Shown here: positions 23,912 to 64,000 of the stretch, one piece after another | Numbering within the stretch: position 1 is the stretch's first letter | How the letters are laid out: the number at the start of each line of letters is the position of its first letter | NCBI RefSeq assembly: GCF_013407165.1 | Contig: NZ_CP026994.1 | Location: 1 to 64,000, forward strand | DNA length: 64,000 nt | DNA from: Nitrosopumilus oxyclinae | GTDB taxonomy: Archaea; Thermoproteota; Nitrososphaeria; Nitrososphaerales; Nitrosopumilaceae | Reading direction: 5' to 3' | Program-made: the position numbers and the translations under genes | The notes under the pieces: model-generated | Told to the model about the DNA's origin: nothing | What the model saw: only the letters and a program-made list of their open reading frames with translations | Databases searched by the model: none

Positions 23912-25006
23912 ATGTATCCAGAAATCGTACCAATCCATAGGAAAGAGTCTCTTCGGGAAGATGGAATGCTTTTTGTAAGGACTGAGGGTATCCTCGAAAC
24001 AATGGTTAAGGCACCTTTGATAATTGCTGGCTTAATGGTTGTTGCACTAACGATGCCAATTCAGACCTCATTCGGTTCTACTCGTATGCTTGATCTAACC
24101 CTTTATTCAGATGGCTCAGCACATATTTCATCTCAGCTAGAAGTAGATCCTCTAGATCCTGATTATGAAGTGAGTCTGTTTGGTTCATCGATTGATAATT
24201 TTGTGGTTGTAGGTGAAAATGGATTTTTGCTATCTAGTGAAATTATTGATGATAAAGCAATAATTGACACTTTTGGTTCTTCTTCTATTTCAATTAATTA
24301 TGATATTCACGATTTAATTTCTAAAGAAGGGAGAGTTTGGACTTTTACTTTAGATTCTCCAACTGATTACTCGTTACTGATGCCACGAAATTCAATTATT
24401 GTCGGAATGGATGCATTACCATCAAACATGGTTTTGATAAATGATCAAACAAAATTAGATTTGAATTCAGGTTTGTCTGAAATCAATTATATTTTTGGAA
24501 GTACACAACCACCAACTACACAACCACCAACTACACAACCACCAACTACACAACCACCAACTACACAACCACCAACTACACAACCACCAACTACAATGCC
24601 TGAACAACCAAGTGATGATGTAAGTACAATTGCACTAGTTGTTTTTCCTGTTGTAGCAGTTATTGCTGGAGCAGCTATTATGATAAAAAGAAAGCAAACA
24701 AAATCTTCCTTAGTAGAACAATCTGAAGTTATTTCTGAATTACAAATTAAAACTGATACAACTGACGCTGAAAATATCTTGAATTTAAGACCTGATATGC
24801 GTGAAGATGATAAAGAAATTATTAAATTTATTTCTGCAAATGGAGGGGAAGCTTTAGAAAGTGATTTAAGAAAAAAATTCTTACAACCTAGAACTACAAT
24901 GTGGAGAGCAGTAAAACGATTAGAAAGACAAGGAGTAATTGAAATTGCCAAAAAAGACTTGCAAAATCTAGTCAAATTAAAGAAAGATTTGGAGGAAGAG
25001 GAATGA
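23912..25006 (+). CDS. Membrane-tethered winged-helix protein with PPTTQ linker
   Basis: Order of parts: signal segment (about residues 31-56, MVKAPLIIAGLMVVALTMPI), an external beta-rich domain (60-195), a TQPPT x6 linker (about 198-227), a transmembrane helix (VSTIALVVFPVVAVIAGAAIM, 238-258), then a cytoplasmic region ending in a winged helix (about 298-360, REDDKEIIKFISANGG, TTMWRAVKRLERQG). So an outside domain is joined to an inside DNA-binding domain, the layout of a one-component transmembrane sensor. The ATG at 24002 (residue 31) would start directly at the signal segment and may be the true start. The stop overlaps the next gene by four bases (ATGA). Confidence 0.82.
   Translation: MYPEIVPIHRKESLREDGMLFVRTEGILETMVKAPLIIAGLMVVALTMPIQTSFGSTRMLDLTLYSDGSAHISSQLEVDPLDPDYEVSLFGSSIDNFVVVGENGFLLSSEIIDDKAIIDTFGSSSISINYDIHDLISKEGRVWTFTLDSPTDYSLLMPRNSIIVGMDALPSNMVLINDQTKLDLNSGLSEINYIFGSTQPPTTQPPTTQPPTTQPPTTQPPTTQPPTTMPEQPSDDVSTIALVVFPVVAVIAGAAIMIKRKQTKSSLVEQSEVISELQIKTDTTDAENILNLRPDMREDDKEIIKFISANGGEALESDLRKKFLQPRTTMWRAVKRLERQGVIEIAKKDLQNLVKLKKDLEEEE
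24503..24592 (+). repeat. Six tandem copies of a 15-bp unit (TQPPT linker)
   Basis: The unit acacaaccaccaact occurs six times without change and encodes TQPPT six times. Identical codons in each copy point to recent expansion. It forms a stiff, probably O-glycosylatable stalk between the external domain and the membrane. Confidence 0.95.
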
Positions 25007-45114: not shown

Positions 45115-47844
45115 CTAGTCATCATCACTTGGGGAATTTTTTATTGCCTTTTGTGCATGTTTCCATGCTTTCTTGTAATGATCTATTGCTTTGTCATACT
45201 TTCCATCAGCTGCTTTTTCATCACCCTTTGCTAATTCAGCTTCTGATTTTACTAGTTCCTTACTAGATTTTTTATCTGCTTGGTTTTCAGAAGTATTTGC
45301 CTCATCAAATGCATTAGAAGCTAATTGCCTATCTACTGCTACTAGAACATTAATTACACCTGTAACATCAGTTGAATCGTCATCTTTTTCTATTTTCATT
45401 AAACTTTTGACTGCTTTCTTTTCTTTGTCAAATACTTTGTGTCCGTGCTTTGATTCTAGAGATATTTCATCCTTCCAAAGTTTATCATCAAGACTATTTT
45501 CTATTTCCTTTAAGGCTTTTTTAAGCTCTTTCTGAGTTTTCTTTGAGGCATCATCAATTAATGATTGTAATATTGTAATTTGTTCTAATTTTTGATCTTG
45601 TAGTGAAGGATTTTCAGCAGTTATTTCAACTGAGCTAGAACTTTCATCATTATCAGAATCACTTACAGTACATGTTGGAGTAAAGTTTCCTGCATTTTCA
45701 AATGTATGAGTTGGGTTTTGTATAGCAGAATCTTCTAGCCCGTCTCCATCAAAGTCCCAAGAATATGTTAGTGGTTCGTTTCCAGTTGCACTATTACATG
45801 TAAATGATACATCTAGTGGTGTATCGCCTGATGTAGGAATTGCAGTAACTACTGCAATAGGTGAATTATCACATGCATCTCCAACTCCGTCCCCATCAAT
45901 ATCTTCTTGGCCAGGATTTGGGATTGTTGGACAGTTATCTGTGTTATCTCCAACTCCGTCCCCATCAGTATCGATTTCATCATCAAGAATTTCAGCAATT
46001 ACTTGCTGCACTCCGTTTTCTTCTCCACCTGTAACTCCAGTGATATCAATTACAACACTTTCATTGGTTTCTAAAATATTATCGTCAAGTCCTGTTAATT
46101 GAATTGTTCCAGTAGTATCTGGATTCTGAATTACAATGATATTACTTGAAACTTCATAATCATTATCTAAAATTGCATCTCCACCAAATGCTAAATCAAT
46201 TACCACATCTGAAAAAGGCAATTGATCTAAAGTTGCAGTAACAGTTGCTGTTCCACCATCTTCATCAAATGGAGTCCCTACTATGGAAAGTGAAACTTTT
46301 GGCAAATCATCATCAGCAATTATACCTGTAACTTGCTGCACTCCATCTTCTTCTCCACCTATTACTGAAGTAATATCAACTAGAACACTTTCATCTCCCT
46401 CCACAACAGTATCATCAATTCCAGTAATTACTATTGATCCTGAAATACTTCCGGTAGTAATTGAAATTGTGTTGCTAGATATTGTATAATCGTCATCCAA
46501 AACTGCATCTCCACCAAATGCTAAAATAATATCTATATTAGAAGGAGCATTTTCATTTAAAGTTGCAGTAACAGTTGCTGTTCCACCATCTTCATCAAAT
46601 GGAGTCCCTGCTAAAGAAATTGCGACAAGAATAGGTTCAACTGTAACTAGGATTGATGATGAATCAGAGTTGTTATCTGAATCACTTACAGTACATGTGG
46701 GAGTATAATCACCTGGATTATCATAAAAGTACAATGAATTTTGATCCATTGAATCTTCTAGCCCGTCTCCATCAAAGTCCCATGAATATGTTAGAGGAGT
46801 GTTTCCTGTGACACTAGTACATATATGAGTAACAAGAAGTGGTGCGATACCAGAAGTAGGATTTGCAGTTACAATTGCAATTGGTGTAAAGTCGCAATCA
46901 TCAGGTACTCCATCACCATCTGAATCCAAGTTATCATCAAATCCTGGACATACATCATCTACATCAGGTACTCCATCACCATCTGAATCTACTAATGTTA
47001 GTGACAACTCAAATGTTAATCCTTTAGCTTCTGTTAAAAATGGAGAAGCATTAATCAAAGTTGCAAGACCTGTAGTTGTTAATGAATGATATCCAGATTG
47101 ACCTACATCATCTCTTGCTAAAACATAATACAATTGATCATTTGTATTAAAGGAAGCTTGATACAATTCTCCTGTTAGAGATCCTGAAATAGTTGTAGTT
47201 GTTACATCACAAGTGGTTATATCATTAATTCTATCCAAACGTATATCAGAAGGACCGCCTATTCCTACTCCTGCTAGTCTATACAATACATCTTCAGTCC
47301 AATTATACACCAAATAGTTAAACGAAGTTCCAGAATCTGGTAATGAACATGATGGAGTTACAAGAGCATTTGTTTTATCAACTGAAAACAATACATCATT
47401 TACAGTTGCACCGGCACCAGTTGCAGCAAATAATGAACCATCTGAACTAAAAGCTAATGTTGTAAATGCATCATCCATTGAATCTATTTTAGCACCAAAT
47501 CCAGTTTCAGGATCTATTGTTGCCAAAAATCTATCACTTGATTCCCCACCAGATTGAATTATTGCATAGTAAATTCCAGTAGTTGGATCTTGTGAAATGG
47601 CAGTACATCCTTTCACATTACCAGAAACCCCACTGATTATCATTGGAACTGATGAAATTATTGTACCATCAATTTTGTCAAGTTCATGAATTTCTTTTCC
47701 AGATACACTTGGTTTATCACAAGCATATAGAGTATCAGTAGTTGTAAATGCAAATGCATTATTTTCTAAAATTCCAGGAATTATTAACAATAAAAAAATT
47801 GAAGACAAAACAATGAATCTATTTAATTGCACATTGTTTAACAT
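45115..47844 (-). CDS. Large secreted surface protein with Calx-beta, PKD and TSP3 repeats
   Basis: The 909-residue protein has a signal peptide (FIVLSSIFLLLIIPGILENNAFA), then a propeller-like region (about 35-290). A thrombospondin type-3 Ca-binding repeat follows (DSDGDGVPDVDDVCPG, about 292-320), then a PKD domain (TYSWDFDGDGLEDS), two Calx-beta domains (about 405-620, each opening with GTPFDEDGGTATVTATL), a second TSP3 stretch (DTDGDGVGDNTDNCP), a second PKD domain and a charged helical C-terminus. The Asp-rich repeats bind calcium. No terminal anchor helix is visible, so it probably joins the cell surface through other contacts. Confidence 0.85.
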   Translation of the reverse strand: MLNNVQLNRFIVLSSIFLLLIIPGILENNAFAFTTTDTLYACDKPSVSGKEIHELDKIDGTIISSVPMIISGVSGNVKGCTAISQDPTTGIYYAIIQSGGESSDRFLATIDPETGFGAKIDSMDDAFTTLAFSSDGSLFAATGAGATVNDVLFSVDKTNALVTPSCSLPDSGTSFNYLVYNWTEDVLYRLAGVGIGGPSDIRLDRINDITTCDVTTTTISGSLTGELYQASFNTNDQLYYVLARDDVGQSGYHSLTTTGLATLINASPFLTEAKGLTFELSLTLVDSDGDGVPDVDDVCPGFDDNLDSDGDGVPDDCDFTPIAIVTANPTSGIAPLLVTHICTSVTGNTPLTYSWDFDGDGLEDSMDQNSLYFYDNPGDYTPTCTVSDSDNNSDSSSILVTVEPILVAISLAGTPFDEDGGTATVTATLNENAPSNIDIILAFGGDAVLDDDYTISSNTISITTGSISGSIVITGIDDTVVEGDESVLVDITSVIGGEEDGVQQVTGIIADDDLPKVSLSIVGTPFDEDGGTATVTATLDQLPFSDVVIDLAFGGDAILDNDYEVSSNIIVIQNPDTTGTIQLTGLDDNILETNESVVIDITGVTGGEENGVQQVIAEILDDEIDTDGDGVGDNTDNCPTIPNPGQEDIDGDGVGDACDNSPIAVVTAIPTSGDTPLDVSFTCNSATGNEPLTYSWDFDGDGLEDSAIQNPTHTFENAGNFTPTCTVSDSDNDESSSSVEITAENPSLQDQKLEQITILQSLIDDASKKTQKELKKALKEIENSLDDKLWKDEISLESKHGHKVFDKEKKAVKSLMKIEKDDDSTDVTGVINVLVAVDRQLASNAFDEANTSENQADKKSSKELVKSEAELAKGDEKAADGKYDKAIDHYKKAWKHAQKAIKNSPSDDD

Positions 47845-54142: not shown

Positions 54143-54165
54143 ATACCAAATCTTTTTTAGTTTCA

Positions 54166-54380
54166 ACATTATTCACTACAACATTATTCACTACAACATT
54201 ATTCACTACAACATTATTCACTACAACATTATTCACTACAACATTATTCACTACAACATTATTCACTACAACATTATTCACTACAACATTATTCACTACA
54301 ACATTATTCACTACAACATTATTCACTACAACATTATTCACTACAACATTATTCACTACAACATTATTCACTACAACATT
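54166..54380. repeat. 15-bp satellite: 14 perfect tandem copies plus a partial
   Basis: The unit acattattcactaca occurs 14 times without any change at 54166-54375 and a five-base partial copy follows. It is non-coding: no frame with a credible start or composition covers it, although in-frame repeats (VVNN in one direction) make it look like an ORF. It begins 24 bases after the rqcH stop and lies upstream of the giant surface-protein gene. Perfect identity of copies suggests recent slippage or unequal exchange. Possible roles are a terminator-like spacer or nucleoid protein site; I cannot tell. Confidence 0.95.
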
Positions 54381-54731
54381 TTTTAAAAATAAAAATATAA
54401 TTTTCAAAAATTATTACAATTCAAAATTTAGATCCAATTCTCTATTTTTTCATCAAAATTCATCAAAAATCAGAGATCCAAATCGGATCAATGTATCTAC
54501 TTAATTTCCACCATGGAATCAGTTTTTTAGGTACATTTCCACCTCCTTTATCGCTTTTTGTGAATCATTTTTTGTTGGTGTAGAAGAAGATGAGGTGTTT
54601 ACCTTAGACTATCCTATGGATAGCATTATTGGATTTTTCAATCCTCTAGAGAATTCTCTACACCAAATTCTTGCAAATCAAATTCTACACCAAGAAATTT
54701 TTGCAAATATTTGCGTGGAGGATTTTTTTAA
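54381..54731 (+). promoter_or_regulatory. Leader region of the giant surface-protein gene
   Basis: No gene is supported in these 351 bases. Elements seen: GATCC...GGATC hairpin (54475-54489); TTGGTGTAGAA (54575-54585) and its exact complement TTCTACACCAA (54683-54693); CTATCC-TAT-GGATAG hairpin (54609-54623); TAGAGAATTCTCTA perfect palindrome (54647-54660); and a near-direct repeat CTACACCAA...TTGCAAAT (two copies, about 54658-54710). GGAGG at 54717-54721 is a Shine-Dalgarno sequence 10 bases before the TTG start. A long untranslated, structured leader is likely. Confidence 0.55.
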
Positions 54732-57700
54732 TTGAGAACTCTTCTATCTTTTGTTGCAATTTTGTTGTTAGCTACATCCAGTTTACCACTTGGATTTGCA
54801 GACATTACACCAGTTGATTCATCAAACCATGAATCAATAGAACAAACACCTACACAAATAAGAAAAACTATTTCTGTAAATCTTGATGAATCTATGGGAT
54901 TTTCAACTGATGATCCAAGAAAAAAACAAGTTGAAAGTATGTCTCAATTCATTGAAGAATATTCATCAAAATTAATTTATCTTGATGAAGATCTATCAAT
55001 TAGTACATCAACATCTGATCAAAAAATTCATTATGATTATGTTGCAGTTCAATTACAACCAAAAGTTGAAAGAATTTTACAGACAGATAAACTTCGTGAT
55101 GATAGAAAAAAGAATCTTAAAATTGAATCATTTTATTTTGATAATTTAGGTCAACAACAATCTGAAGATTTAATTTCAATTGATTCAAATATTTTACAAA
55201 CAATATTTTTTACTGATCCATTTAAATTAATTTCTGATTCTTTATTAGAACATGATATTTTAGAAATTGAAAATATTCTTGATGAGCAATCTTTTGTAAA
55301 TATTTTTAATTATATTTCTAATTTTGAGCCATCTTTTATTTTGGATAATTCTTTTGTTGTTGTTATTTTTACTCCACTTGTTTTCTTTTTATTCATTTTT
55401 GCTGAAGATGTTAAATTTAAATTTGAAAAAATTCGTCCTCTACTTTCTCTTGTTTGTGTTTTTATTATTTTATCAACCGTTATTGTAACTCCATATTCTA
55501 TTTCATCAAGTTACTGGCCTGAAGCTTATGCTGATACTGGTGACATGAATGAACTAATTTATGATAATACAACTGCCTCAGATGACATCTCATCTTCTTC
55601 TACACCAGCTGAAGATACAGAAACTTCTGAGGCTACAACTTCTGATAGCACTGATTCCCCAGTGGATTCAACCTCATCTTCTTCTACACCAGCTGAAGAT
55701 ACTGAATCCACTGAGGTTTCATCTTCTACTCAACCAACTGCCTCAGATGACATCTCATCTTCTTCTACACCAGCTGAAGATACAGAAACTTCTGAGGCTA
55801 CAACTTCTGATAGCACTGATTCCCCAGTGGATTCAACCTCATCTTCTTCTACACCAGCTGAAGATACTGAATCCACTGAGGTTTCATCTTCTACTCAACC
55901 AACTGCCTCAGATGACATCTCATCTTCTTCTACACCAGCTGAAGATACAGAAACTTCTGAGGCTACAACTTCTGATAGCACTGATTCCCCAGTGGATTCA
56001 ACCTCATCTTCTTCTACACCAGCTGAAGATACTGAATCCACTGAGGTTTCATCTAATCAAACTTTGATCAATAACATAGTCACTAACAGTACAACAACTG
56101 AAGTTATTCCTACTAACAGTACAACAACTGAAGTTATTCCTACTAACAGTACAACAACTGAAGTTATTCCTACTAACAGTACAACAACTGAAGTTATTCC
56201 TACTAACAGTACAACAACTGAAGTTATTCCTACTAACAGTACAACAACTGAAGTTATCCCAGTCAATGGAACAATAGGCACCAACTCTACAGGCATCATC
56301 CCAGTCAATGGAACAATAGGCACCAACTCTACAGGCATCATCCCAGTCAATGGAACAATAGGCACCAACTCTACAGGCATCATCCCAGTCAATGGAACAA
56401 TAGGCACCAACTCTACAGGCATCATCCCAGTCAATGGAACAATAGGCACCAACTCTACAGGCATCATCCCAGTCAATGGAACAATAGGCACCAACTCTAC
56501 AGGCATCATCCCAGTCAATGGAACAATAGGCACCAACTCTACAGGCATCATCCCAGTCAATGGAACAATAGGCACCAACTCTACAGTTCTAGATGTACCC
56601 ATAATATTACCAAATGCCACGGAATCTTGGCAATTTGAGACTCAGGTGAATGGCTCGCAATTTATTGGAGATGTGTACATTGAGGAGACTGATTCTAGCC
56701 TTATTCTAGATGGTGATGGATATGTTGCAAATAATGGAAATTCGACTAGCAATATATCAAATCTCTCAATCACAGCTTGGGTAAATCCTGATTATTCCGG
56801 CGGTTCAGCAGAATTTACAGTAATTAGTAAGGAAAGAGCATTTGCTCTAACAATTAACAATAATATCGAACCAAAACACATTGCTATTTTCTCTCTATTT
56901 GATGGAATCACATGGCATTCTGTTCAAACAACTGAAAAAATTGGAGATGATTGGTCTCATATTGCTGCAACATTTAATGGAACAACATTATCAATCTATA
57001 CAAATGGAACACATTCAAACACAAATGAATCAATTGAAAAAATTGAATTAACAATTAATGGACAACTCGAAGCTAAAACAATTGAAACAATTGAATCTAC
57101 ATCTGATATTGTAATTGGTGCATCACTTGATAATAATAGATCACTTGATGATGTTACAAAACAATTCTTTGGTGAAATTAAAGAAATTAATATTTTTAAT
57201 GTTTATCTTACAGCAGAACAAGTAGAAGAAATTTATCTACAAACATTACCTATAATACAATCATTATACAATAATACAATAGTAGAAATTATTGAAGATA
57301 AAAAAGATCTAGTAGTTATTGATGTATTAACACCTAAATCAATTTCTAATTCAACTAACATTAATGGAACAAATACTGATACAACTATTGATTCACTAAA
57401 TGCAACTGATTCATTATTCATATTTAATGATACACAAGGATATATTCCAATTGTAGAAGAATCATTAAATGAAGAACTAAACCAATTAACAATATCTACA
57501 TGGATTAATCCATCTTACACATCTGGTTCAGCAGAATTTGCAGTTGTATCTAAAGAAAATTCATTTGTTCTTGGAATTAATAATATTTATTCACCTGAGA
57601 AAGTTTCAACATTTGCAATCTTTGATGGAATAACATGGACAAAAATTTCTGGCACAACAGAAGTACATGATTGGTCACATTTAGTTGCAGTAATCAATGG

Positions 57701-60700
57701 AACAGAACTTTCATTATATCTAAATGGTAATCTAGAATCACAAACAATAATTCCTGAATCATTTACAATTTTAGAAGGAGAAGTTTCAACAGTATCTGCT
57801 GAAATTGCAGAAAATGATTCTGATTTGATCATCGGTGCATATCTTAACACACTTAGAAGCAAGGTATCCCTCTCAAATCACTTTTCAGGAACAATTGATG
57901 ATGTTTTAGTATACAAAGAAGCCCTTTCACAGGCACAAATCAAGGAGATTTACGCCGGTTATGTAGTGCCATCTGAGAATTACAACATTCCTTTCGAATC
58001 TCAACTTTTATCTTTCACTGATGTACTTACAGTATTTGTAAATAATTCAACAGTATCTGAAACTGTCTATGTTGCACCAATTAACATTACATCAACTGCT
58101 CCATTAGCAGTACAATCACTATCATTTTCTGATTATGTATCATACAAGATTAATGGTGATTCAAATCAATCATCAGTTGATGTAATAGTATTTTCTGATG
58201 TTGTAGTAGCAACAATCATTCCTTATGATACAACAAGAAATGACGACATACAAATCATTTCTGAATCATTGTCCTTCTCTGATGTTGTAGTAGCAACAAT
58301 CATTCCTTATGATACAACAAGAAATGACGACATACAAATCATTTCTGAATCATTGTCCTTCTCTGATGTACTTTCAATATCAATTAATGACATTAATCTA
58401 GTTACTCTATCAGAATCCCTATCATTAAATTCTAAATTACTCTCTAGCAATTATACATTCACAGCAAATAATGTTACATCTGATATCATACTAGAGCATG
58501 ACACAATTGAAATCAATAAACAGGTTACATGGACACATGATGTAACATTCTCAAATTACACTGATTCTGTTGCAGTAGAAATTCCAGCAGATGCAGAAAT
58601 TCTTATGATTAAATCTTTCAGTAACACTTCAGAAAATATAATCTTTGATTCCAAAAACTACGTACAAACGAATTCCACATACACAGGACTATATGATGAT
58701 GCTGATATTTCAAACAAAGATCTAAAGAAATTCTTTAGACTAGTTGACTCTGTTCAAACAATTGAATCAAACATCAACAATACAAATGAAAAGATTTCAT
58801 ACTATGCAAACCTTGACAATGCCAAAGCACACAAAAAACTCGACAAACTAAATGAAAAATTAGACAAGCTAGAAGACAAACTAGAGGACAAACTAGAGAA
58901 AATTTCAGTTATTGTTCCTCTTGCATCTCTTCAACAAGTAGGTAAGATGCTACAACAAAACATGCCTCTCAAAGTCTTGGTTCTTAACAATACAGATGAT
59001 AATGTAGAGTTGACCTTTACTACACCTGCACCAACTACTGTAGAGGAGGATAACTCTGATAATGACAAATTCAACAAAAAGGTTACAGTTTCCCACAAAT
59101 CAGCATTACACTATACCAATGTCACAGCATATTCTGATCTTCCAGAAGATCTAGTAGAGGCAGGAACTGATTTCAAACTATTCTGGAACATTAACAATAC
59201 CAGAGTAAATGTTACAGATGATCCAAGATTTGCAGTAGAATTTGTCGATTCTGATGTAAATGGAATTATAGATCAGATGAAATGGATAGTTCCACAATTA
59301 TCAGAGCAAGAATTTGACATAGAAGCAGATCTTGAAATCATTAATGTTCAAAGCTATCCTGCAGTAGGCGGAAACTGGAAAGTAAGATTTACAACAAATG
59401 GTACTGCTGATCTAACAATCACTGCAGTTAATGGAACAACATTTGGCACTGTATCCCCTGATGATTTAAAATTCTTGGAGCTAAACAACGGTACTCATAC
59501 ACTTAATCCAATTGTAAATGGTAACACAATTACTTATTACAATTATTCTAGTACAGAGGAAGGATTTGAGGAATCACAAGTTCTAACTCCATTTAAACAT
59601 CATTTGATGTTCCAGTTTGGTAACAAGACAGCATTTGCACACAACTCTGCATTTGTTCCAAATGGCCCACAGGCAATTACTTTGTATGGTAGTCCTATTG
59701 TATTTGGTTCGCCTGATACTGAAGATGATATGGCAACTACTAATGCAGTATTTCCTGGTTGGGATGAAGCAGCTGAGAGACAAGATTCAATTTTCACACA
59801 CAACAGTGGTGCTGGTGGTTGTGATGGTTTGGAGGATACTGGATGTATTTCAATCAATGCAACAGAAGCAGGAACATACAGAGTCAATTACGGATTAAGC
59901 ATAGCACAAGGACAAATTGATGTTGGTAGATGGCAAGCAGTTTCATTTATCCAAAATGATACTGATGGTATTGGCGGCTATGGTATTGGAGATGGAATGT
60001 CATGTTATGATTCTGCATATGATAGAAATTCAGAAAACTCTGATGGTGTTGCATTCTCTGGTGAATGTCTAGTAAAACTTGATGCAAACGGTTCCATTAG
60101 ACTTGGTTTATCCAAAGTATCTGATGTATCTGATCCAGATGGCTACGTATTCACAGACAATAGAAACTGGCTATCAATGGTAAAGGTTGAAAATCCTACA
60201 ATCTCTCTTAGTAAATCAGGAGGTACACTATCTGTTACTGCCACTCCAGCTGATATGACGTTCCTTGATGCAGATATTATAACCTATAATGCTAGTACAT
60301 TTACCTTTGATGGTTCATCTGCTAATGCAGAAATTACAGTAGATGAAGATGGATTCTACAAGGTATCATACAGTGCTCTTGTTGAACTCCCAGGAACTGC
60401 AAGAACTAGCATAATTGGTAAAATACAAACAAACACTGGTGGCTCATTTGTTGATGATGTGTATGGTAGTAGTCTTACATACATTAGAGGTGGAGATGGT
60501 ATTAATTTTGGTGCACCAACAGCATCTGCAATTCTTGAGCTAAATGCAGGCGATGAATTAAAGATTGTTTTAGAAGATGAAATAGCAGGAACTTCAACTG
60601 CTACTGATTATCATCTTGATGTTGAATTTCTTGGACCAAACACTTCTGCAAATGTTCTAAGAGTTTACAACGCTACTGGTGGACTTAACATTGATGTTAT

Positions 60701-63700
60701 TTCAAGTGATGTTCTAATTGATTGGGATACGTCTGATGAGATAGGAAGTCATTTCACATTTACTGGAACGCCATCATCTCCAACTGAAGATATTACAATT
60801 AACGTTGCTGGACTATATCATATTGCATATGGAGTTGATTCTGTAAAAGATGGTACTAGTACTGGTGACAGATTTAAACAAATAACCAGAGTACAAGTTG
60901 ATGATGGTACTGGATTTGTAGATGCTAAAGCATGTTTTGGTGACGGTTTTAGTAGAGGAAGCAATGCTGGTGAGGATCACAGAAAAATAACTTCATCATC
61001 AAGTTGTATGTTGGAGTTAGGAAAAGATGACAAGGTTAGAGTAGTTAGTCTCAAAACATCTGACCTTGGTACTGGCACTGATACTCATACTATCGCAGGC
61101 CAAACATATCTTACAATTCATGCTTTGACTATAAGCAATCCACCATTGGAAGAATCACTACCTCTTTCAGACGTCATAGAAACAGTATTGATTAAGAATA
61201 CAGCAGAATCATTAGCACTTTCAGATGTTGTTATAGCTACAAAAATGGCTAAATTCACACTTGATGAATCATTATCTCTAGTTGATGATCCTATATTTGT
61301 AGACAAGGACGGTGAAGTTCTTGTTACCTTAGCAGAAGATTTGATATTTGGAGCAGATATTACTAGAGCACAAGTTCTTCCAATTTCGCTACAAGAATCA
61401 CTCTCATTAGATGATATTGTTAATCGAAATGCTCCTTTCTCTCTTACAGAATCCCTTACATTATCTGATTCTATAATTGGAGAAGCATTTGTTCCATCCA
61501 ATCCTGACTTTAAGATACAACATGGTACTGTAGTAATACCTGCTAATGATTTTGATGATACAATAACTAGTTCTGGTGGTGCAGACTTTGATGTATGTAC
61601 AGGTGATTGTTTCATTATGCAAGTAAGTTCAAGACATTCTGGTATGGGTACTACATCTGGTGGTGGTACTCAGGATGCAAATGATGTTACAACATACATC
61701 TCTAGTGATGCAGGTCTAACTGTTGCTGGTACTGTTACATTTACCAGAGCAGACAATACAAATCCTGATAACAGAGTTGCATGGCAGATTCTAGAATACA
61801 TTGGTCTTGCAGGTGGTCCAAACGAGATGAAAGTATTAGATACAGGTACTGTTTCACTTGGAGCTACAACTGCTAATGCAGCAGGTGCTACAATTAGTGG
61901 TGGTGCAGCAGATGATGATGATGTTGCAGTAATCATTACAGGTGTTTCAAACACTAATGCTGGTGTAAATGCCTATACAGCAGGATTAGTCACTACTGAA
62001 TGGAAGGGTGCAAGCAACGTACCTGTCTTTAATAGAACTTCAACAACTGATGCAATTGATGTTTCATATGCTGTAGTTGAATTTACTGGTAAGAACTGGG
62101 ATTTGCAAAGAATAGAACATTTAGGAACTGATATTCCTTCTAATGCAGAACAAACTGAATCAATTGATGATGTAGGTGATCTTTCTCGTGCTTTTATCTT
62201 ACAAGCTCAGCAAAGAAGCCCCGATACTAATGATACAGATGGTCTTTGTGAAATGGGTGAGCAGGTATGGTTATCTGACACTGATACTTTATCATTTGCT
62301 CACGATGCTGATACTGGTTGTGATTATGAGGGTCATAACATAAACGAAGTTGTATGGATTCTTTCTAACTCTAATGCACAAACTGGAAAGAAGATGATCG
62401 TAGAGCATCAACAACCAACTCGAGCTCCAGGAGGATTAGAAGAAGATAATTGGCAAGTATCAATTAATTCTCTTACATATGGTACTGATGAGACGGCAAT
62501 TCTTGGTTTGACATCAAACTCTGATGGTAGTGGTAGTGCATTTCCTAGAGGATGGGTTATTGCAGAACTTACTGATTCTACTACGGTTGATTTCTGGCAA
62601 TCAGACTCTGATACACAACAACAAAAATACTCTTTCAGTGTTGTACAATGGCCTCGTTCAAAAATCATATCTTTATCACTTGCTGAAGATTTGGGATTAG
62701 CTGACATTATCCTTGTAGACAAGCCATACACTGAATCTCTAACAATTTCTGATGTTGTTGAAGTTGTAAATGATGCTAGAGTTGAACTTGTAGAATCATT
62801 ATCTCTAGTTGATAGCCCTGTATTTGTAGACAAGGACGGTCAAGTTCTATCTAATCTTGCTGAATCATTTTCATTTGATGATGGAACAGTATCTGTCTTA
62901 ATTCTACCAATTAAACCACAAGAATCATTGTTACTAGTTGATTCTGTAGAATTTACTCATGATAAAACTCTCACACTTGTTGAATCATTAGTGTTTGATG
63001 ATGAAATTCCTATTAGTGAAGTATTTCGATCTTCAAATCCTGACTTTAAGACACAACATGGTACATTTACAATAAGTGCTGCATCTACTACTGGAACAAT
63101 TACTAGTTCTGGTGGTGCAAATTTTGATGTATGTACAGGTGACTGTTTCATTATGCACACAAGTACAAGACAAACAGGTTCAGGTGATACGACTAATGGC
63201 GGTGTTCAAACTCCAGATAACTTTATGACCCATGTGTCAAATGATGGTGGTTTAACTACTGCAGGTACTGTTACATTTGCAAGATCTGGTTCTACTAATG
63301 ATAACAGAGTTGCATGGCAGATTCTAGAATACATTGGTCCTGCAGGAGGTCCAAACGAGATGAAAGTATTAGATACAGGTATTGTTTCATTTGGAACTAC
63401 AACTGCTAATGTAGCAGGAGCTACAATTAGTGGAGGTGCAGCAGATGATAATGATGTCGCAGTAATTATTACTGGTGTTAGCTCTGATGGTGGTGCAACT
63501 GACTATGATTCTTCTCTTGTTACTACTGAGTGGAGTGGTGCAAGCAACGTACCTGTCTTTAATAGAACTGCAGTAAATTCTGTATCACTTGATGTTTCAT
63601 ATGCTGTTGTAGAATTTACTGGTTCTGCATGGAATCTTCAAAGAGTTGAAAAAGTTGGCTCTGATTCTCCTTCTCCAATACAAACACAATCAATTACGGA

Positions 63701-64000
63701 TGTAGGTGATCTTTCACGTGCATTTGTATTACAAGCTCAGCAAAGAAATGCAGATAACACTGCATCAGATGGTCTTTGTGAAACTGGTGAAAGAGTATGG
63801 TTATCTGATACTACAACTGTATCATTTTACCACGAAACTGCTACTGATGCTTGTACATATGATAGTAATATGAACAGAGTTGTATGGGTTCTTTCTAACT
63901 CTAATGCACAAACTGGAAAGAAGATGATCGTAGAGCATCAACAACCAACTGATCAATTAAACACTGTAGATCCTAATCCACCAGAAGAGGAGAACTGGCA
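54732..64000 (+). CDS. Giant exported surface protein (partial, runs off the right edge)
   Basis: The frame opens at TTG 54732, ten bases after GGAGG, and stays open to the window's end: 3089 codons, no stop. Order: signal peptide (MRTLLSFVAILLLATSS, 1-23); a helical domain (24-205); two hydrophobic segments (about 204-223 and 237-257); a Ser/Thr/acidic repeat block (281-441); two sequon-rich repeat blocks (451-618); two LamG-like sandwiches (about 655-838 and 897-1076); a 28-residue duplication (1155-1210); a coiled coil (about 1353-1394, KLDKLNEKLDKLEDKLEDK); beta modules resembling C1q/TNF jelly rolls (about 1657-2128); ESLxLxD motifs; and a 512-residue module (2257-2768) with a second copy begun. 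It is probably an adhesive or filamentous surface protein; the job is unproven. Minus-strand ORFs inside it are shadows. Confidence 0.88.
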   Translation, partial: MRTLLSFVAILLLATSSLPLGFADITPVDSSNHESIEQTPTQIRKTISVNLDESMGFSTDDPRKKQVESMSQFIEEYSSKLIYLDEDLSISTSTSDQKIHYDYVAVQLQPKVERILQTDKLRDDRKKNLKIESFYFDNLGQQQSEDLISIDSNILQTIFFTDPFKLISDSLLEHDILEIENILDEQSFVNIFNYISNFEPSFILDNSFVVVIFTPLVFFLFIFAEDVKFKFEKIRPLLSLVCVFIILSTVIVTPYSISSSYWPEAYADTGDMNELIYDNTTASDDISSSSTPAEDTETSEATTSDSTDSPVDSTSSSSTPAEDTESTEVSSSTQPTASDDISSSSTPAEDTETSEATTSDSTDSPVDSTSSSSTPAEDTESTEVSSSTQPTASDDISSSSTPAEDTETSEATTSDSTDSPVDSTSSSSTPAEDTESTEVSSNQTLINNIVTNSTTTEVIPTNSTTTEVIPTNSTTTEVIPTNSTTTEVIPTNSTTTEVIPTNSTTTEVIPVNGTIGTNSTGIIPVNGTIGTNSTGIIPVNGTIGTNSTGIIPVNGTIGTNSTGIIPVNGTIGTNSTGIIPVNGTIGTNSTGIIPVNGTIGTNSTGIIPVNGTIGTNSTVLDVPIILPNATESWQFETQVNGSQFIGDVYIEETDSSLILDGDGYVANNGNSTSNISNLSITAWVNPDYSGGSAEFTVISKERAFALTINNNIEPKHIAIFSLFDGITWHSVQTTEKIGDDWSHIAATFNGTTLSIYTNGTHSNTNESIEKIELTINGQLEAKTIETIESTSDIVIGASLDNNRSLDDVTKQFFGEIKEINIFNVYLTAEQVEEIYLQTLPIIQSLYNNTIVEIIEDKKDLVVIDVLTPKSISNSTNINGTNTDTTIDSLNATDSLFIFNDTQGYIPIVEESLNEELNQLTISTWINPSYTSGSAEFAVVSKENSFVLGINNIYSPEKVSTFAIFDGITWTKISGTTEVHDWSHLVAVINGTELSLYLNGNLESQTIIPESFTILEGEVSTVSAEIAENDSDLIIGAYLNTLRSKVSLSNHFSGTIDDVLVYKEALSQAQIKEIYAGYVVPSENYNIPFESQLLSFTDVLTVFVNNSTVSETVYVAPINITSTAPLAVQSLSFSDYVSYKINGDSNQSSVDVIVFSDVVVATIIPYDTTRNDDIQIISESLSFSDVVVATIIPYDTTRNDDIQIISESLSFSDVLSISINDINLVTLSESLSLNSKLLSSNYTFTANNVTSDIILEHDTIEINKQVTWTHDVTFSNYTDSVAVEIPADAEILMIKSFSNTSENIIFDSKNYVQTNSTYTGLYDDADISNKDLKKFFRLVDSVQTIESNINNTNEKISYYANLDNAKAHKKLDKLNEKLDKLEDKLEDKLEKISVIVPLASLQQVGKMLQQNMPLKVLVLNNTDDNVELTFTTPAPTTVEEDNSDNDKFNKKVTVSHKSALHYTNVTAYSDLPEDLVEAGTDFKLFWNINNTRVNVTDDPRFAVEFVDSDVNGIIDQMKWIVPQLSEQEFDIEADLEIINVQSYPAVGGNWKVRFTTNGTADLTITAVNGTTFGTVSPDDLKFLELNNGTHTLNPIVNGNTITYYNYSSTEEGFEESQVLTPFKHHLMFQFGNKTAFAHNSAFVPNGPQAITLYGSPIVFGSPDTEDDMATTNAVFPGWDEAAERQDSIFTHNSGAGGCDGLEDTGCISINATEAGTYRVNYGLSIAQGQIDVGRWQAVSFIQNDTDGIGGYGIGDGMSCYDSAYDRNSENSDGVAFSGECLVKLDANGSIRLGLSKVSDVSDPDGYVFTDNRNWLSMVKVENPTISLSKSGGTLSVTATPADMTFLDADIITYNASTFTFDGSSANAEITVDEDGFYKVSYSALVELPGTARTSIIGKIQTNTGGSFVDDVYGSSLTYIRGGDGINFGAPTASAILELNAGDELKIVLEDEIAGTSTATDYHLDVEFLGPNTSANVLRVYNATGGLNIDVISSDVLIDWDTSDEIGSHFTFTGTPSSPTEDITINVAGLYHIAYGVDSVKDGTSTGDRFKQITRVQVDDGTGFVDAKACFGDGFSRGSNAGEDHRKITSSSSCMLELGKDDKVRVVSLKTSDLGTGTDTHTIAGQTYLTIHALTISNPPLEESLPLSDVIETVLIKNTAESLALSDVVIATKMAKFTLDESLSLVDDPIFVDKDGEVLVTLAEDLIFGADITRAQVLPISLQESLSLDDIVNRNAPFSLTESLTLSDSIIGEAFVPSNPDFKIQHGTVVIPANDFDDTITSSGGADFDVCTGDCFIMQVSSRHSGMGTTSGGGTQDANDVTTYISSDAGLTVAGTVTFTRADNTNPDNRVAWQILEYIGLAGGPNEMKVLDTGTVSLGATTANAAGATISGGAADDDDVAVIITGVSNTNAGVNAYTAGLVTTEWKGASNVPVFNRTSTTDAIDVSYAVVEFTGKNWDLQRIEHLGTDIPSNAEQTESIDDVGDLSRAFILQAQQRSPDTNDTDGLCEMGEQVWLSDTDTLSFAHDADTGCDYEGHNINEVVWILSNSNAQTGKKMIVEHQQPTRAPGGLEEDNWQVSINSLTYGTDETAILGLTSNSDGSGSAFPRGWVIAELTDSTTVDFWQSDSDTQQQKYSFSVVQWPRSKIISLSLAEDLGLADIILVDKPYTESLTISDVVEVVNDARVELVESLSLVDSPVFVDKDGQVLSNLAESFSFDDGTVSVLILPIKPQESLLLVDSVEFTHDKTLTLVESLVFDDEIPISEVFRSSNPDFKTQHGTFTISAASTTGTITSSGGANFDVCTGDCFIMHTSTRQTGSGDTTNGGVQTPDNFMTHVSNDGGLTTAGTVTFARSGSTNDNRVAWQILEYIGPAGGPNEMKVLDTGIVSFGTTTANVAGATISGGAADDNDVAVIITGVSSDGGATDYDSSLVTTEWSGASNVPVFNRTAVNSVSLDVSYAVVEFTGSAWNLQRVEKVGSDSPSPIQTQSITDVGDLSRAFVLQAQQRNADNTASDGLCETGERVWLSDTTTVSFYHETATDACTYDSNMNRVVWVLSNSNAQTGKKMIVEHQQPTDQLNTVDPNPPEEENW
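55572..56053 (+). repeat. Three tandem 165-bp repeats (55-aa Ser/Thr/acidic unit)
   Basis: The unit starts at 55572, 55737 and 55902 and encodes TASDDISSSSTPAEDTETSE and onward (55 residues); the third copy is cut short near 56053. As far as I compared them, the copies are identical at the base level, so they arose recently. Each has a half-unit echo (SSSSTPAEDTE twice). The sequence is disordered, acidic and suited to O-glycosylation. Confidence 0.95.
56082..56261 (+). repeat. Six tandem 30-bp repeats (TNSTTTEVIP)
   Basis: Six 10-residue units, each with one N-glycosylation sequon (NST). Only the last copy differs at the base level (atccca instead of attcct). Every unit keeps the reading frame, so copy number can vary without breaking the protein. 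Confidence 0.95.
56262..56586 (+). repeat. Seven full and one partial 42-bp repeats (VNGTIGTNSTGIIP)
   Basis: Units begin at 56262 and every 42 bases to 56556; the eighth stops after NSTV. Each carries two sequons (NGT and NST). All copies read the same bases, so this block is recent and may differ between strains. Confidence 0.95.
58194..58361 (+). repeat. Direct duplication of an 84-bp (28-aa) segment
   Basis: Two in-frame copies of the segment opening SDVVVATIIPYDTTRNDD start at 58194 and 58278; a third start (SDV) follows at 58362. The second copy is followed by an ESLSFSDV motif, showing how the ESLxLxD units expand by duplication. Confidence 0.9.
61500..64000 (+). repeat. Large 1536-bp (512-aa) module repeated in tandem, second copy incomplete
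   Basis: NPDFKIQHGT at 61500 and NPDFKTQHGT at 63036 begin two copies of the same module. Shared long stretches include RVAWQILEYIG, ASNVPVFNRT, FILQAQQR-like and SNSNAQTGKKMIVEHQQPT. Each module has a Cys pair (DVCTGDCF) and later Cys residues (LCE, TGCDYE or ATDACTY) that may form disulfides. The second copy is cut by the window edge, so the total number is unknown. Confidence 0.9.

Follow-up and report, generated by a model that had tools for sequence, protein, structure and literature searches.

The window analyzed here, bases 1-64,000 of the Nitrosopumilus oxyclinae genome (a single contig of 1,585,110 bases), ends inside a reading frame that it does not close. Is this frame a single gene, where does it stop, and what might so large a product do for the cell?

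Reading Frame, Start and Extent

From a TTG at 54732 the frame is free of stops for 3,089 codons up to the window edge, as both the listing of open reading frames and the translation establish. This agrees with the initial annotation of the window, which had described an open frame in the phase 54732+3n, started by a TTG with a GGAGG ten bases upstream, both of which are present in the sequence; the codons at which it had checked the phase (56082, 58911, 61440 and 63951) all lie in frame by arithmetic. An in-frame stop at 54729 immediately precedes the TTG, and the start codon aligns with the N-termini of orthologues at correctly oriented loci, six loci with the head on the minus strand having been left out of this comparison.

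54164..54380, no strand: intergenic minisatellite, 15 bp x 14.5, 100% identical, 0.35-0.57 kb 5' of the start
54717..54721, + strand: Shine-Dalgarno-like GGAGG, ten bases 5' of the TTG start codon
54732..64000, + strand: 5' part of the giant gene, residues 1-3089, from the ORF call and translation

The annotation had also suggested looking for the stop in the adjoining sequence (L004), where the frame terminates, after 4,736 codons, at a TAG at contig 68940-68942, beyond which a repeat array and a conserved C-terminus resume in frame to 73670. Its statement that ordinary ORF calling would miss the gene holds only where the window truncates it; on the adjoining sequence the gene is an ordinary closed ORF.

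Large parts of the frame are simple repeats, which are able to stay open in several frames, as illustrated by a repeat-borne antisense ORF of 1,640 codons in one relative (G094), and it might be argued that the frame is open by chance or is an artefact of low complexity. However, stop-free runs in 30 Markov-1 resamples of the region reached 197 codons at most, many genomes conserve the head, LamG and tail regions, and in the tail third codon positions differ by 41-42% vs 13-17% for second positions (three pairs). The chance explanation thus retains a negligible probability. In a pair of heads (G000/G056) differences amount to 39, 20 and 35% at codon positions 1, 2 and 3, so that there the third position is not the highest.

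N-Terminal Head and Upstream Minisatellite

The head consists of a signal-peptide-like segment, a stretch of ∼180 residues and a membrane hairpin, the last delineated by hydropathy and by comparison of orthologues.

54732..55565, + strand: head, residues 1-278
55347..55532, + strand: membrane hairpin, two hydrophobic segments round a K/R-containing loop

Hydropathy supports the signal peptide that had been proposed previously, and by the same measure alone an N-terminal hydrophobic signal-like segment is present in the orthologues too; along with the long frame and the repeats it bears out the earlier description of a very large, apparently exported repeat protein. According to the positive-inside rule the K/R loop is cytoplasmic and the remainder of the chain outside. 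The hairpin, which the initial annotation had not named, ends in the motif TPxSISxSYWxxA[YF][AG][DE], which includes a signal-peptidase-like A-x-A at residues 265-267. A single regular expression, too strict in that it missed at least one visible case (L016), located this motif in 13 of the 16 genomes scanned; ten of the 13 have A-x-A and three A-F-G.

Minisatellites with differing units are found 0.3-0.7 kb 5' of the gene in four of nine orthologous loci including the present one (for the relatives, L042 18682-18928, L043 11789-12157 and L047 8111-8389), while a fifth locus, L046, has only a weak upstream repeat (67%). A role as a spacer that tunes expression is possible. Separately, a perfect 15-bp x 6.3 repeat occurs at 24502-24595 of the window within a 364-aa ORF, where it codes for a TTQPP stretch immediately N-terminal to a hydrophobic segment.

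Repeats and Domains of the Middle Region

The head is followed by low-complexity arrays, two domains of the Laminin_G_3 (LamG_3) family and a middle region that differs between species.

55570..56586, + strand: S/T-rich low-complexity arrays, 165 bp x 2.9, 30 bp x 5.9 and 42 bp x 7.9, 100% identical, in frame
56709..57029, + strand: LamG_3 copy 1, residues ∼660-766, Pfam 44.9 bits, above cut-off, also a Pentaxin match
57429..57944, + strand: LamG_3 copy 2, residues ∼900-1071, Pfam 65.6 bits, above cut-off
59649..61151, + strand: three diverged repeats of ∼158-186 residues, possible C1q/TNF-like jelly rolls, 24 and 27% identity to the middle copy
61137..61478, + strand: degenerate 18-21-residue repeat units as spacer, 47% identity to the array units
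61515..62696, + strand: ∼390-residue module, copy 1, no Pfam match
63054..64000, on to 64232 beyond the window, + strand: ∼390-residue module, copy 2, 69% identical to copy 1

The LamG-like domains of the initial annotation were recovered by Pfam as Laminin_G_3 (5e-26) and lie in the N-terminal part of the chain, as in the huge LamG_3 proteins of archaea. Three relatives (G157, G119 and G122) also have two LamG_3 domains, the first nearer to copy 1 and the second nearer to copy 2. Less can be said for the C1q-like domains of that annotation, in favor of which there is a single match to BclA_C (PF18573; E 3e-4) that at 21.1 bits falls below the cut-off of 38 and concerns only the middle one of the three copies scanned; the case for a C1q-like identity of this region is weak. 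AlphaFold models of these repeats and of the 390-residue module, each from a two-row alignment, had a pLDDT of 30 and were discarded, and searches of PDB sequences with both regions returned either nothing or matches with E >= 0.036, taken as chance. Relatives of the 390-residue module are found in G034 and, as one module with 40% identity over 382 residues, in G122, which belongs to another genus. The middle varies by species, with G094 and G001 sharing a middle other than that of the present genome.

The protein had further been described as glycosylation-rich, and it does contain 203 N-x-S/T sequons, approximately twice the number expected (shuffled mean 103.7, maximum 129), with 25 of them in residues 279-640 against a shuffled mean of 11.2. 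However, 123 of the 203 are repeated copies in the array and, as far as the available text of a glycoproteomic study goes, N-glycosylation was not detectable in Nitrosopumilus piranensis (PMC12153357), so that it is not to be assumed for Nitrosopumilus. A gene of the STT3 family is present on an adjoining stretch (L005 11814-13952). N-glycosylation of the giant protein is therefore doubtful.

The Repeat Array

Beyond the window, and hence outside the view of the initial annotation, the chain continues into an acidic array of about 118 tandem units of 18-21 residues, with 94 unit spacings of 18 residues and 22 of 21; by the splitting rule used 111 of the 118 units fall into twelve strings. Within this genome matches to an array query (E 1e-5) are confined to this gene, and the unit is species-specific, each other species having its own. 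Long tandem arrays were found with TRF in G094, G157, G101 and G097, with 40-110 copies of a unit of 18-20 residues, and short ones of such units in G001, G119 and G122. In G133 TRF found no tandem array and there are scattered degenerate units only, so that a long stalk is not universal. For the array units of one relative (L055) pLDDT values are mostly below 50, and the term stalk is thus one that derives from sequence. The Pfam scan covered the chain outside the array (L004 10401-14978).

The Conserved Tail

The C-terminal tail is more conserved than head and LamG. In G094, G001, G026 and G004 its second half is 52-72% identical to that of the present genome, head and LamG reaching 29-48%, and its first part is 50-58% identical in G094, G001 and G004. 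The tail of relative L055, 79% identical in the second part to that studied here, is predicted as a row of tandem beta-sandwich domains with pLDDT mostly 75-90. One of these domains superimposes on the Vibrio biofilm scaffold RbmA (VIA Z 9.9, rmsd 2.7 over 97 residues), and many Ig-like folds match too. The tail is thus predicted to be made up of Ig/FnIII-like domains with generic fold matches, and the likeness to RbmA and other Ig/FnIII-fold matrix and adhesion proteins is one of predicted fold of single tail domains, equally generic, with no sequence homology shown. Two PECAM chains (E 0.004) returned by a PDB profile search with the tail were set aside as a generic Ig signal.

The last ∼120 residues form a module shared with one other protein of this genome:

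L049 3090-6359 (contig 1006090-1009359): 1,089-residue LTD + MG2 protein, similar in its C-terminal ∼120 residues to the giant protein's end

Pfam and NCBIfam scans yielded no known anchor family, leaving the head hairpin and the conserved tail as candidates; NCBIfam gave no match to the protein at E 0.1, PHROGs gave only weak matches to families of unknown function, and three queries of viral contigs confirmed no relative. Pfam matches on the second piece scanned (UBC_like, Gam, Cag12 and others) were rejected as spurious, since no stretch passes alone.

Relatives and Neighboring Genes

A query with the tail (916 residues) matched 28 of the 95 genomes of the genus at E <= 1e-30, and 14 were matched by the head. 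With the default threshold the tail reaches 79 of the 95; the weaker matches, which we did not count as orthologues, are mostly short and many lie in a separate protein of ∼1,100 aa, ORFs of about this length being matched in many genomes of the genus. Across the class, a tail profile (E 1e-20) matched 65 of 250 genomes in 8 of 62 genera, every match falling within one family. Twelve loci were read along the whole gene, and in seven of these head, LamG and tail are contained in one gap-free, uninterrupted ORF of 2,888-5,203 aa.

Same genus: G094, 5,203 aa; G001, 3,329 aa
Other genera: G157, 4,229 aa; G101, 3,208 aa; G119, 3,040 aa; G133, 2,888 aa; G122, 3,120 aa

The ORF of G154 is single too, although it spans a gap of 100 Ns. 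The gene is interrupted in the present genome (G000), G026 and G004, each at a different place, and in G097 the ORF begins inside the array, the head not being found in the stretch examined. Of 14 tail loci in the genome collection, 11 have a frame that is cut by the contig edge 5' of the tail; judged by eye, nine of these frames start within array-like repeats, one starts within LamG and the last within repeats of another sort. Versions of the gene are thus present in relatives, and drafts are often broken within it, so that the family is probably under-counted in databases and its members cut. In the single-contig genome G009:C1 both contig ends (L050 and L051) fall within the giant gene, which suggests that assembly failed to close the circle through the array.

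A gene for glycyl-tRNA synthetase lies directly 3' of the giant gene here, and close by in 7 of the 15 tail loci with flanks (G000, G026, G032, G009, G010, G101 and G154). In G157, G097, G004, G094 and G119 the adjacent gene codes for another large repeat or Ig-type protein (two of the five cut by the edge of the stretch), of a kind that differs by genome: DUF11/RTX Ca-binding, RTX/FG-GAP/PA14, MopE Cu-binding and Big_13 (L091, L093, L097, L045 and L042). The window itself holds a second large, apparently exported protein (45115-47844; 909 aa), in which two PKD stretches and a TSP_3 repeat are accompanied by stretches like LapA/Calx-beta.

The Break Inside the Array

Some 36 nt after the TAG, at 68979, the frame is open again, and it continues for 1,563 codons through the conserved C-terminus. 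Read through the break, the whole span comprises 6,312 codons; it contains three in-frame stops, which lie within 13 codons of each other in one irregular array unit of 67 nt, the remaining units of the 118 being without stops. Most 14-mers of the irregular unit are absent from the rest of the array, and seven exact runs, alternating between two types of array unit and preserving their order, account for all of its 67 nt. These two types are present in 18 and 8 copies, respectively; for 60 letter shuffles of the unit the coverage averaged 30 and did not exceed 44 of the 67 nt. A patchwork of this sort is expected from a consensus caller that stacks two units, from which we infer an error of assembly, and hence that the number of units is uncertain as well. 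The in-array stop is most likely such a consensus error, and the locus is likely to be a single gene of about 6,310 codons.

It could instead be that the TAG is real and that there are two genes, one for a tail-less protein of 4,736 residues and another for a separate tail protein initiated at the GTG at contig 68979, or else that the locus is decaying or has been switched off by a change of frame. The assembled unit does carry three stops, the interruptions of G026 and G004 lie elsewhere in the gene, there are frame breaks in the tails of G010 and G032, and the N gap in the ORF of G154 could be counted toward frameshift or decay. On the other side are the seven uninterrupted relatives, the confinement of the stops to one unit in 118 that is an alternating hybrid of two others, the sequence between the stops, which reads sensibly in another frame before the original frame returns, and a tail that is intact and conserved 3' of the break. 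We consider two genes or decay to be distinctly unlikely. Phase variation through loss of units was also considered and rejected, as the main units within the gene (165, 30, 42, 84, 54 and 63 bases) are all multiples of three and their loss would keep the frame.

Proposed Function

For the gene whose open frame, domain and repeat anatomy and family-wide orthologues are described above, the interpretation that we favor, with confidence slightly better than even, is that of a single giant gene, its in-array stop a consensus error, coding for a secreted, single-chain surface protein resembling fibrillar adhesins. The N-terminal signal would initiate export, and the hairpin would either hold the chain in the membrane or be cut at the conserved A-x-A site. 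The predicted binding region is made up of the LamG_3 domains and the modules that vary by species, the array would serve as a stalk of drifting length and the Ig/FnIII-like tail as a constant end for attachment or assembly. Cleavage after the hairpin would place the tail at the coat with the LamG end reaching out; an uncut hairpin would reverse the orientation, with the tail distal. A constant tail and variable N-terminal modules with an array between them fit a fiber with its tail at the coat and the LamG end outward, and the greater conservation of the tail relative to head and LamG, along with the species-specific unit, fits a constant end, a variable tip and a drifting stalk. The likely job would be to hold cells to particles, to surfaces or to one another, an adhesive role that we infer from LamG_3, the layout and the large repeat and Ig-type neighbors.

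A structural component of the envelope, associated with the S-layer or a matrix and providing bulk or spacing for the coat without a binding role, would also be acidic in its array, S/T-rich and very long, and could have a conserved Ig-like tail; the ∼120 residues held in common with the LTD-MG2 protein might then be a shared part for coat attachment. However, LamG_3 belongs to the concanavalin clan, which includes many carbohydrate-binding domains according to the accessible text of PMC11573180, and the set of middle modules differs between species, both of which suggest ligands rather than bulk. We therefore regard a purely structural role as unlikely. Returning to the adhesin-like protein, a more general proposal, which we offer tentatively and which is somewhat unlikely as a whole, is that of a family-wide class of giant archaeal fibers, exported and displayed in a way of their own, in which a membrane-anchored head releases the chain at a second signal-peptidase site internal to it, the Ig-like tail, with its end shared with the LTD-MG2 protein, docks to the coat, the species-homogenized array sets the reach, exchangeable modules set the ligand and the minisatellite may tune expression.

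Relation to Known Proteins and Significance

The kind of protein is already known; what is added here is its anatomy, the presence of orthologues across the family and the observation that the gene is fragmented. In the available text of a survey of huge archaeal proteins, Laminin_G_3 is by far the commonest domain, its function not understood, and one N-terminal copy is the commonest architecture (PMC11573180). The present protein has in common with these the N-terminal LamG_3, sometimes in two copies, and the very long chain; against the limit of 5,000 residues for huge proteins it measures 4,736 codons as assembled and 6,312 through the break, and its orthologue in G094 5,203. The hairpin head, the 18-21-residue array, the Ig-like tail and the fragmentation in drafts go beyond the description in that text. 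Fibrillar adhesin-like proteins, as defined in the accessible part of PMC8286594, from which we took our criteria, are extracellular single chains with an adhesive-type domain, usually at a terminus, and a tandem-repeat stalk that makes up a rigid rod; such a layout, apart from the rigidity, is suggested by the sequence here. Unlike in those bacterial proteins, no known anchor motif was found in this one, and its repeat unit is very short, with no confident fold prediction. By description it is also like Nmar_0455-0459, large predicted adhesion proteins (∼1000-3000 aa) irregular across Nitrosopumilus genomes that are induced in biofilms of Nitrosopumilus maritimus, according to the portion of PMC12448741 that was available. 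A literature search, with most subscription journals outside its reach, found no description of the particular architecture of the giant protein.

Ammonia-oxidizing archaea are among the most abundant marine cells, and little is known of how they attach to particles or to one another. A gene that takes up 1.2% of a small genome (18,939 of 1,585,110 bases) if it is single, or 0.9% as assembled, and that many relatives have retained is presumably of importance to the cell.
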